Shown: positions 33,816 to 39,722 of the stretch, one piece after another
Layout: every line of letters starts with the position of its first letter
Numbering within the stretch: position 1 is the stretch's first letter
Source: Syntrophaceae bacterium
GTDB taxonomy: Bacteria > Desulfobacterota > Syntrophia > Syntrophales > UBA2185
Reading direction: 5' to 3'
NCBI GenBank assembly: GCA_003142635.1
Contig: PLMX01000219.1
Location: forward strand, 1-40,694
Length of the DNA: 40,694 nucleotides
Program-made: the position numbers and the translations under genes
Notes under the pieces: generated by a model
Database searches by the model: none
Told to the model about the DNA's origin: nothing
Seen by the model: only the letters and a program-made list of their open reading frames with translations

Positions 33816-35135
33816 CTACTTATAAAATCCGCAGGCGACGACCAAGTCACCCACTTTTTCGAAAAAGACAGACTTTTGTTCCATCCTTTTATTTGTGGGA
33901 TTGGACCACAAATAATCGACCCAACCTCTGCCTTCACTTCCTATTATACTTATAATTTCGCGAATAAACAACTTCCCATCCGCATCTTTAAGGTCAAGCA
34001 GATTATGACCTACCAGTTTACGATTTGCTCCATGCGACAAGCACCGTCCCTTAAAATCCAACACGTAGATATACAGGTCGCGTTTTACAAATTGGCCAGT
34101 CGAGTCGTCGAATTCCTTGAATGCCTTATCTGTTCCATAGGCAGTCAAATATTTCGCTGCTTTATTTACCAATTCGACCACCTCTGCAGCTGTACCCCTT
34201 CCAGTTCGTTGCGTATATCGCGGTGGTTCTATTTTCGCCAGTGCTTCTCTTTCCCGCTTACAATGTTTGACGCTCCTCTTCCAAATTTCTTCTCTCTTCC
34301 GCCAAACGCTTCGCTTCTTCCATTTCTGACTGGATGGCGGGAGCAGATGCATCGCCAGCTTTTGCTGCTGACTTTCCACCATTTTCCGGAATGAAGAAAA
34401 ATTTCCCTTCCAACGATGATAATTCCCAGGGAACCTGCCCGGTCTCCTTTCGTAGCCTTTGGCGGACACCCTTGAACACATCTTCAATTGTCAGGCCGGG
34501 TCTTTTCATAAACTGTAATAGCGCCGCCGTGTAGGGGCTGTTTCTACCGTCACCATCACGAGCTACACTCCCGGGACCCGTAGAATAGGAGATAAAGGTT
34601 CCCACAGGGGCTGTGTTCACAATTGCGAGACCTCGGCTTGCTGACCGGAAACTCCTTGAGTAAGGATTGTCGCGGCAGGCATCAAGAATAACAATATTCA
34701 GACCATTGTTTGCATTAGCCATCTCATCGAGAATCCGTCCCGCATCTACAGTCTCATACTTTACGTCTGACTCTTTCTCAATCCGGGCACCAACGGGAAT
34801 TAGATAATTGACACCGTTAGCCTGCAAACCATGGCCGGCATAGTAGAACAGACCGACACCGCCACGCTTTAGACGATTACCAAAATCTGCGATCACGTCT
34901 TCCATCGCCCTCAGATTTACATTTTTTTCTAGGGGATGACCGTGAAGCCAAGTTTCTGGAGAGTAGCGGCCATATCTGTTGCGTCATTGACGGGGTTCCT
35001 CAGAGGACCAGAGCTGTAGCTGCTGTTACCAATGACGAGGGCTGTCCGCTGCTCCGTAGCGGCGTGCGATGAAGAAGGGATTGCTAAGGCAAGAAACAGG
35101 CAGGTAATCGCGATTCGTATACAGATGGATTTCAT
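33816..35135 (-). pseudogene. Caspase-like (C14) / coiled-coil / Cache protein, broken by two frameshifts
   Basis: Read across two frame changes this is one gene of about 440 codons. It has a signal peptide (MKSICIRIAITCLFLALA...), the start of a caspase-like domain (TALVIGNSSY), the catalytic His in LFYYAGHGL and Cys in ILDACRDNP. A Glu/Arg-rich coiled coil follows, and last a Cache domain ending in KSVFFEKVGDLVVACG. The first break is near 34929-34936: the frame stops at TAG after GFTVIP, and one more C in the CCCC run would restore LEKNVNLRAMED. The second is near 34259: removing one T restores QTL-KREREAL. The catalytic residues survive, so it may be a recent pseudogene or a double sequencing error. 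It would act in the periplasm, function unknown. Confidence 0.8.
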
Positions 35136-35274: not shown

Positions 35275-35736
35275 TTACTTGGTCTTATAATATCCACAGA
35301 CGACGATCAGGTCACCCACTTTTTCGAAGAAAACAGACTTTGGCTCAACTTTTTTGGTCTGCGGATTGGTCCAATTGTAATCCATCGTGCCCTTGCCCTT
35401 TGTATTTGCCTCATCGACTATGGCTTTAATAAATTTTTTCCCGTCATTGTCTTTGAGATCAATCAGAGGCTGCCCGATTAGTGAGTGGTTGGCGCCATGA
35501 GACACGACGACGCCCTTCTGGTCCAGCACATAGATGTACAGGTCATCTTTCACAAACTGTCCCATCAGGTCGTCAAATGCCGGAAATGCCTTGGCCTTCC
35601 CGTTAGCCTTGAGATACGCAACAGCCTTGTCCAGCATGCTGTTAGCCTCTTTTGCCGTGCCTCTGGCAGCCAGTGCAAGAGAAGTCATCCCTACCAAAAG
35701 CCCCACTACCAAAATTACCGTAATCAGTTTTTTCAC
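35275..35736 (-). CDS. Periplasmic single-Cache-domain protein
   Basis: This is a 153-residue protein with a signal peptide (KKLITVILVVGLLVGMTSLALAARG) and one Cache-type sensor domain (DLYIYVLDQKGVVVSHGANHSLIGQ, then KSVFFEKVGDLIVVCGYY). No membrane domain or output module follows, so it is probably a soluble periplasmic ligand-binding protein. Translation starts at GTG 35736 behind AAGGAGAGG. It is closely related to the C-terminus of the broken caspase gene downstream, and the shared hairpins suggest a duplication. The cognate ligand is unknown. Confidence 0.87.
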   Translation of the reverse strand: MKKLITVILVVGLLVGMTSLALAARGTAKEANSMLDKAVAYLKANGKAKAFPAFDDLMGQFVKDDLYIYVLDQKGVVVSHGANHSLIGQPLIDLKDNDGKKFIKAIVDEANTKGKGTMDYNWTNPQTKKVEPKSVFFEKVGDLIVVCGYYKTK

Positions 35737-37627: not shown

Positions 37628-38218
37628 TCAAAACACAGCCGGTTTGCAGATCACTTCCTTCACTTTGAGATCAAAGAAGCGGGCGCTGTTAGCAGGCTTG
37701 AGAACCAATGCTGCATCGACGCCTTGAGCGGTTCCCCCTACGGATATTAGATCTTCGTCAGTTCTCACGAGACCGGCATCTGCGGCCATCAATGTCACTT
37801 CAATTGCGACCTTGACGCCCTGACCGAATACGCGCAGTGTGTGGGCCATGATTTCATCTACCTGATAGGTCTCAAGCTTGTTCCTCACGCCGCGGCCGAC
37901 CCCGCCGAAAGCGTGCTGGCAGGTAAGGACTTTGACACCGTGAGATTCCAATTCCCTTCTGTCCTTTTCGTCCAGTTCCTGAAAGTCGGGCTTCGCGTAG
38001 CCGGTGACATGGGTAACGGCGATGATCTTGATGTCTTTGTCAAGAATCTTCAAGGCTTCAAAGGCAGTTCGTCCGCTCACCGTGGCGATCAGTACCTTTC
38101 CTATGGAAAGCTCCCTGGCCCTCTTGGAGACGGCTTCGAGGACGCCCTTAGTATTTGTCCTTCCTGATTTATGGAAATAACGGCAGGATGCGTCACGGTA
38201 AGGAGAAGATTCAGACAT
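37628..38218 (-). CDS. Stand-alone pyruvate-kinase alpha/beta (C-terminal) domain protein
   Basis: This is a 196-residue protein resembling the C-terminal regulatory domain of pyruvate kinase (PF02887), with no barrel domain. Motifs include KVLIATVSGRTAFEALKIL, IIAVTHVTGYAKPDF and GVDAALVLKPANSARFFDLKVKEVICKP. Such isolated domains occur in several archaea and anaerobic bacteria as proteins of unproven function, sometimes thought to be sensors or binding domains. A GTG at 38221 is also in frame; the ATG at 38218, behind GGAGG, is used. It is followed by the transglutaminase-like gene on the same strand, separated by only 20 bp, so the two are probably co-transcribed. Confidence 0.82.
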   Translation of the reverse strand: MSESSPYRDASCRYFHKSGRTNTKGVLEAVSKRARELSIGKVLIATVSGRTAFEALKILDKDIKIIAVTHVTGYAKPDFQELDEKDRRELESHGVKVLTCQHAFGGVGRGVRNKLETYQVDEIMAHTLRVFGQGVKVAIEVTLMAADAGLVRTDEDLISVGGTAQGVDAALVLKPANSARFFDLKVKEVICKPAVF

Positions 38219-38367
38219 CACAGCTTGCCTCCATAGGAAAATACTTTATGCTGCTTTACAGACGGAATGACAAAGTAGTATATAGGCAAGCATCAGCCGC
38301 GTGTCAATCATAAAATTGAGTTATCTTTCCGCTAATGATCAGGGGCCGCCAAGATGCAAAATATCAT

Positions 38368-38391: not shown

Positions 38392-38444
38392 CGTTAGATG
38401 CGAATAAACTGTCAACAAGGCAGCAAATCTGAAAGGAGCATACG

Positions 38445-38759
38445 ATGTTTGAAGTTTCGGAAAAAGCAGTTGAGATGATTCAGGACTTTCTCAAAGACAG
38501 GAGTGAAGAACATATCATCAGGATCATGATGAATGAGGGTGGGTGATCCGGGCCCTCTCTGGGCATGGCTCTGGATGAGTCAAAAGAAGGCGACGAAACG
38601 TTTAAGAAAGACGGGTTGACCTTCATAATCAACAAAGAGGTGCTTGAGTTGGCAAAACCGATTGCAGTAGATTTTGTGACCACACCGCAAGGATCAGGTT
38701 TCAGGCTGACATCCGGCCTGGACGCCGGCAGTTCATGTTGCGGGTCATGCAGTTGTTAA
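38445..38759 (+). CDS. HesB/IscA-like selenoprotein (in-frame UGA = Sec34)
   Basis: Read through the TGA at 38544-38546 this gives a 104-residue A-type (HesB/IscA-like) protein. The N-terminal part is MFEVSEKAVEMIQDFL; the sequence then reads NEGG-U-SGPSLGMALDE and ends CCGSCSC. In IscA the same loop is GCSG with the first metal-binding Cys, and the C-terminal CGCG holds the other two; here selenocysteine takes the first position and a Cys-rich tail replaces the CGCG. HesB-like selenoproteins with GGUSG are known in anaerobic proteobacteria. A bSECIS hairpin could form just after the UGA (38547-38575; UCCGGG with UCUGGA). GAAAGGAG precedes the ATG. Stopping at the TGA would leave 33 residues, so a standard call would start wrongly at 38565. 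Confidence 0.85.
38547..38575 (+). promoter_or_regulatory. Candidate bSECIS element
   Basis: Immediately after the UGA, UCCGGG (38547-38552) can pair with UCUGGA (38570-38575) including G-U pairs. Beyond one C-C mismatch CC (38554-38555) pairs with GG (38567-38568). The loop region contains a run of three G. An alternative inner stem GCCC/GGGC with a UCUCU loop is also possible. The position fits a bacterial SECIS; the fold was not computed. Confidence 0.5.
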
Positions 38760-38774
38760 GATAGCAGGGGGCCT

Positions 38775-39722
38775 ATGACTGAGGAAAGGAAGGCGGATTA
38801 TCTCCGTTACCTTGCTGATGAGTTCATGAAAGCAAAGAGGTACGATGATGCGATCCTCCTCTATCAGAAATTAGTTGAGATGCATCCGGGTGAAGATTCC
38901 TTTCTTCTTTCATTGGGCTGGGCCTATCATGACAGCGGAAGACTCGATGATGCAATCGCCTGCTTCGAGCGCCTTCTTGCCGTTGAACTTGAGCGCAGAG
39001 TTTTTACCGGGTTTGCCTTCGATGAACTTGTAAGGATCTTTAAGGAAAAGGGAGAATATGAGCGTCTTCTTGATATCTGCGAGAGGGCGGCGGCTGCGCA
39101 ACCCGATGACATAGCGCTTCTCAATGATCTTGGTGATGCCTATCTCAAGGCGGGCAAGGCAAGCGAGTCTGTCAGGGTGTTTAGAAAAATGGCGGAAATG
39201 GAACCGGATGCTTCAGCAACGTATTGCAGTCTTGGCAACGCTCTCGTCCATGCGGGGGACTTTGATGGCGCAGAAGCGGCATACGGAAGAGCAGTCGAGA
39301 TTGACCCGTCAGAGGCGGGCACTTTCTATAACAGGCTCGCGAATGTATATTGCAATGGGGGGCATGACGAGCGGGCAGAGGGGGCTTTCAAGAAGTGTCT
39401 CGAATTCCGGTTTGATGATCCCATGTACCACTGCGGTCTTGGCGATGTTCTCGTGAAACAGGGAAAGATTGACGACGCGCATGGCGTCTATGAAAAGGCC
39501 GTTGATCTTCATCGTAGTTCAGCGGGTGCTTACTACAACAGGTTTGGAAATACCCTCGCCCGGGGGAATCGCCACAGCGAGGCGATAGAGGCCTTCAAGA
39601 AGGCGATTGCCGCTGATCCTCATAATCCCTTCTATTATGTCCATCTTGCAGATTCATATGCCGCGCTTGGCTTTTCCGATCAGGCAAAAAAAACTTACCT
39701 TCAGGCCGAATCTCTTAAATGA
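38775..39722 (+). CDS. TPR-repeat protein
   Basis: This is a 315-residue protein made of about eight tetratricopeptide repeats: helix pairs with the usual Gly8/Ala20 pattern, e.g. YDDAILLYQKLVEMHPGE, LDDAIACFERLLAVE, FDGAEAAYGRAVEIDPSE, HSEAIEAFKKAIAADPHN. It has no signal peptide or membrane segment, so it is a cytosolic protein-protein scaffold. It begins 15 bp after the selenoprotein stop with a GGGGG site before the ATG, so the two genes are likely co-transcribed. A functional link between them is possible but unproven. The partner is unknown. Confidence 0.9.
   Translation: MTEERKADYLRYLADEFMKAKRYDDAILLYQKLVEMHPGEDSFLLSLGWAYHDSGRLDDAIACFERLLAVELERRVFTGFAFDELVRIFKEKGEYERLLDICERAAAAQPDDIALLNDLGDAYLKAGKASESVRVFRKMAEMEPDASATYCSLGNALVHAGDFDGAEAAYGRAVEIDPSEAGTFYNRLANVYCNGGHDERAEGAFKKCLEFRFDDPMYHCGLGDVLVKQGKIDDAHGVYEKAVDLHRSSAGAYYNRFGNTLARGNRHSEAIEAFKKAIAADPHNPFYYVHLADSYAALGFSDQAKKTYLQAESLK

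Follow-up and report, generated by a model that had tools for sequence, protein, structure and literature searches.

A HesB/IscA-like gene with an in-frame UGA in a Syntrophaceae bacterium: a very probable selenoprotein with a conserved TPR-repeat neighbour

Does the TGA that interrupts a HesB/IscA-like reading frame in a Syntrophaceae bacterium mark the end of a gene, or is it read as selenocysteine (Sec)? The frame lies in a stretch of 40,694 nt (assembly GCA_003142635.1, contig PLMX01000219.1, positions 1 to 40,694 of the forward strand), which is referred to here as the window. From the letters alone, an initial annotation had proposed that an IscA-type protein is encoded here with Sec in place of the first cluster-binding Cys. 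The features on which this question turns are compiled in Table 1.

Table 1. Positions of the selenoprotein gene, its signals and its neighbours in the window
Feature	Position	Strand	Remarks
Divergent upstream gene, PK_C domain (pyruvate-kinase C-terminal)	37628..38221	-	Conserved neighbour in some relatives
Shine-Dalgarno sequence AAGGAG	38433..38438	+	6 nt before ATG; from sequence
hesB/iscA-like selenoprotein gene	38445..38759	+	104 aa, Sec34, stop TAA 38757-38759
In-frame TGA read as Sec, codon 34	38544..38546	+	At the IscA first cluster-ligand position
Bacterial SECIS hairpin, UGGCUC / loop UGGAU / GAGUCA	38566..38582	+	6-bp stem, ~20 nt past the UGA
TPR-repeat gene	38775..39722	+	Starts 15 nt after the hesB stop

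The reading frame and its homologues

The frame starts with ATG, is open except for one TGA and ends with TAA; the UGA stands in the context GG-U-SG, and the C-terminus of the protein reads CCGSCSC. The ORF, its UGA at codon 34, the context of the UGA and this C-terminus had been claimed beforehand, and all four were confirmed in the sequence. Under the standard code, the region splits into a stub of 33 aa and an ORF of 64 aa that begins at an internal ATG (38565), and only the latter appears in the mechanical ORF list. The expectation that a gene caller would truncate the gene at both ends thus held for the 5' part but not for the 3' end, which is formed by a normal TAA. Other frames with a single TGA were listed within the window, and none had a selenoprotein motif that was evident by eye.

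Profile searches placed the translated product in the NF038090 family (IscA_HesB_Se), with a score of 114 bits against a cut-off of 85 and coverage of residues 1-101 of 101 profile positions. Matches to TIGR00049 and PF01521 lay above the cut-off and above gathering, respectively. The score for the older model TIGR01911 (HesB_rel_seleno), 46.5 bits, fell below its cut-off of 66.35, which speaks against the identification. Homology had been said to continue past the TGA, and it does: NF038090 covers both sides, and comparison with the closest relatives revealed purifying selection 3' of the TGA (pS 0.14-0.18, pN 0.013-0.05), which rules out a pseudogene or a frame that is open by chance.

The NF038090 family was found in 127 of the 155 genomes of the same order, and most matches, among those listed, have exactly one TGA. 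Syntrophaceae MAGs were the nearest named relatives, with a best identity of 97%. We compared codon 34 across 96 sequences, comprising the window's own and 95 loci, three of which duplicate others from the same genomes: TGA was present in 78, TGC/TGT in 12 and neither in 6. TGA thereby occupies the same place in more than 70 homologues from many genera. Sequence relatives in the PDB were AQ_1857, HI1723 and IscA, and in the alignment with AQ_1857 the Cys of its GGCSG motif fell on the Sec codon, as did the Cys of the 12 Cys loci. The proposed position of Sec, at the first cluster Cys of IscA-type proteins, was borne out in this way, and a lack of Cys/Sec alignment among homologues, which the initial annotation had named as grounds for giving up its claim, was not observed.

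Multiple paralogues, 5-7 in number, were seen in three genomes of one genus in another family of the order (G073-G075, family f13). Among them (loci L080, L081, L082, L084, L085, L086), the Sec/Cys ligand had been lost several times: two paralogues carry a Trp codon, TGG, precisely where the UGA would stand, and at this position others lack Cys altogether.

SECIS element and Sec-decoding machinery

A hairpin had been suspected right after the UGA. A SECIS hairpin with covariation indeed exists, but its place is about 20 nt further on (Table 1). Nearer to the UGA, a local hairpin (GCCC/GGGC, 38552-38564) is predicted for the window; it was rejected as the SECIS, as relatives do not keep it. Counted from the last base of the UGA, the loop G of the SECIS (38573) lies 27 nt further on, and bacterial SECIS elements have been described as carrying a G in a small apical loop (PMC1088965). 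The five inner pairs (38567-38571 with 38577-38581) form in each of the 66 distinct Sec homologues that have the core motif, whereas just 5 of the 12 Cys homologues keep the same stem. Stems retained in some Cys homologues (e.g., L026) resemble the remnant SECIS reported for a Desulfitobacterium HesB-like protein (PMC1794560). Another six Sec loci have atypical motifs: four of them keep the stem, and in two (paralogues L128 and L131) one pair is broken; these two count against the main identification.

Codon usage in the stem region was strongly biased. Where the residue eight codons after the UGA is Ala, its codon is GCT in 60/60 cases, against 12% GCT in the rest of these genes. The 66 Sec homologues always use CTG for the Leu that comes next and GAG (66/66) for the Glu, codons with shares of 36% and 41%, respectively, elsewhere. 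Together with the codon that follows, these three build a stem whose loop is UGGAU/UGGAC. Two-sided compensation was also found, in that where Ser (TCT) takes the place of Ala, the partner base is G/A instead of C/T and a U-G or U-A pair results, and one pair varies among G-C, G-U, U-A and U-G types. The observed pairing was reached by 0/20000 permutations; since this test ignores sequence relatedness, we draw support from the agreement in codon bias and from the contrast between Sec and Cys homologues and not from the permutation figure alone. This SECIS escapes Rfam, a scan of the window having given no hit at gathering thresholds.

Sec machinery had been predicted for the genome, and selA (616 bits), selB (390 bits) and selD (377.5 bits) were all found above their cut-offs. 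The selD gene (L019, on contig C108 of the same genome) has an in-frame TGA of its own, within HGAGUACK, which makes SelD a selenoprotein too, and selB exceeded its cut-off in 142 of the 155 genomes of the order. In contrast, selC was absent from this 260-contig assembly, where a tRNA-Sec pattern search and an RF01852 search gave only ordinary tRNAs or nothing; this weighs against the main identification, though the assembly lacks the complete selC-moeA stretch. A tRNA-Sec with the anticodon TCA is present in 3/3 genomes of the same genus, next to a gene that, read from sequence alone, appears moeA-like. This 1.4-kb selC-moeA stretch gave matches of 91-100% identity in the three siblings and none in the genome studied here. 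Because the entire stretch is missing while three siblings match, an assembly gap of the MAG is the simplest reading. Absence of selC or selB from the genome had been singled out in advance as grounds for rejecting the selenoprotein reading; selB is present, and the missing selC stretch looks like such a gap. From hairpin anatomy, covariation and genome content, SelB carrying Sec-tRNA(Sec) would recognise the hairpin and decode the UGA as Sec.

The stub and the 64-aa ORF that the standard code yields, together with the lack of selC in this assembly, might suggest that translation really ends at the TGA, or that the TGA stems from a sequencing error, and that the locus holds a pseudogene or two small ORFs separate from each other. 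This is contradicted by the position-specific conservation of the TGA across many genera, by purifying selection after it, by the covarying SECIS and by the Sec machinery of the genome, and we find it barely conceivable: the conserved TGA and stem have already refuted it for practical purposes. Only marginally more credible, and still highly improbable, is a UGA read as another amino acid (e.g., Trp or Cys) via reassignment or leaky readthrough. Such decoding would fit the TGG codons of paralogues L080 and L081 and the Cys codons of other homologues, but it would not account for a stem that is kept in Sec-coding homologues and decays in Cys ones, nor for the presence of SelA, SelB and a Sec-containing SelD; moreover, other genes here end at TGA as expected, such as the TPR gene (...AESLK-TGA). 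We accordingly favour a Sec-decoded HesB/IscA-like protein, to which we assign a probability of about 96%.

Predicted fold and function of the selenoprotein

An AlphaFold model of the product (pLDDT 84.7), in which the C-terminal Cys tail is disordered (pLDDT <50), matched IscA with a [2Fe-2S] cluster (1x0g), IscA (1r94) and SufA (2d2a), with a Foldseek value of 2.1e-6 to IscA. The fold and the ligand positions are common to the window protein and the A-type carriers IscA/SufA/ErpA (PF01521, TIGR00049). The C-terminal tail of these carriers is CGCG. The window protein differs by Sec for Cys at the first ligand, by its tail CCGSCSC and by its surroundings, as no isc or suf genes were found directly beside it. 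Across 48 homologues, U/C34, C98 and C104 were invariant and C102 nearly so, and a three-Cys ligand pattern has been published for A-type proteins (PMC7144353). An A-type carrier with a selenolate ligand is the reading that best explains the IscA-like model and the match of the conserved positions 34, C98, C102 and C104 to the three-Cys pattern. The product is predicted to take the IscA fold, and Sec34 with Cys98, Cys102 and Cys104 would replace the usual three-Cys ligand set, a predicted arrangement against which the disordered tail of the model counts. By homology, it would most likely bind iron or an Fe-S cluster through the selenolate and may hand iron or the cluster to target proteins in this anaerobe.

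A role as Fe-S carrier is reasonably probable, although Methanococcus in which the gene for its HesB-like selenoprotein had been disrupted showed normal nitrogen fixation (PMC11097638), which argues against it. The protein might instead act in thiol/selenol redox chemistry or in binding selenium or heavy metals. Sec is usually catalytic in redox enzymes, published accounts call the family's function unclear (PMC11097638, PMC13188914), Cys residues differ in number and spacing among the Cys-rich tails, and the genomic partner is a TPR protein rather than isc/suf genes. The IscA fold and the conserved three-ligand pattern, which includes position 34, speak against this alternative, which we consider somewhat unlikely, and the carrier role remains the preferred reading.

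Gene neighbourhood, known relatives and possible significance

A homologue of the TPR-repeat gene was located just downstream of hesB on the same strand in 24 of the 35 loci examined; the set includes 5 Cys loci, at 4 of which no such homologue was found. The TPR gene is likely an operon partner of the selenoprotein gene; a promoter and terminator scan around the pair gave no more than shuffles give. Elsewhere, the window contains a gene for a caspase-domain (Peptidase_C14) protein (34258-34905, minus strand), and near it one for a single-Cache-domain protein (35275-35736, minus strand), to which 33816-34487 (minus strand) looks similar by eye.

The window gene belongs to the already described family of HesB-like selenoproteins, a point that the initial annotation did not mention. 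These have been known since 2005-06, also from other Deltaproteobacteria and from Clostridia, and are listed for Syntrophobacter fumaroxidans, Geobacter sulfurreducens and Syntrophus aciditrophicus (PMC1794560), the last of which is from the same broader group. Shared with the family (NF038090, TIGR01911) are the fold family, Sec at a conserved Cys, a SECIS with an apical-loop G and anaerobic deltaproteobacterial hosts. Nothing essential differs from the proteins of PMC1794560, in the available text of which a conserved downstream TPR neighbour goes unmentioned. MMJJ_08070 of Methanococcus maripaludis, found by mutagenesis and 75Se labelling, is likewise a Sec-containing HesB-like protein, and its function is reported as unclear in PMC11097638, where this work is cited; it differs in being archaeal, with SECIS elements located in the 3' UTR in archaea (PMC1088965). 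A search of the available literature gave no paper in which HesB-like selenoproteins are connected to TPR proteins. The conserved TPR neighbour and an apparent lack of a Cys-type carrier are the only parts for which no description was found.

This lack emerged from a PF01521 search, which matched nine control genomes and detected no Cys-type A-type carrier in the bacterium's own genome or in three genomes of the same genus; as the search missed most Sec genes, the negative result covers intact Cys forms, and the own assembly is ~95% complete. NF038090 found only the Sec gene in the same set of genomes. Since no Cys-type carrier was detected in them and a TPR gene so often adjoins hesB, the selenoprotein of these syntrophic anaerobes might be their only A-type carrier, paired with the co-encoded TPR protein for selenium-dependent Fe-S delivery, a proposal that we regard as tentative and, as a whole, unlikely. 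A 2009 survey reported A-type carriers to be absent from many Delta-Proteobacteria (PMC2682760), and part of this absence could be an artefact of standard-code annotation of a UGA-encoded gene. If the Sec form is the sole A-type carrier, standard-code surveys will report these anaerobes as being without one. The locus itself presents a clean, well-supported UGA-encoded Sec at a metal-ligand position rather than at an obvious redox-catalytic one.
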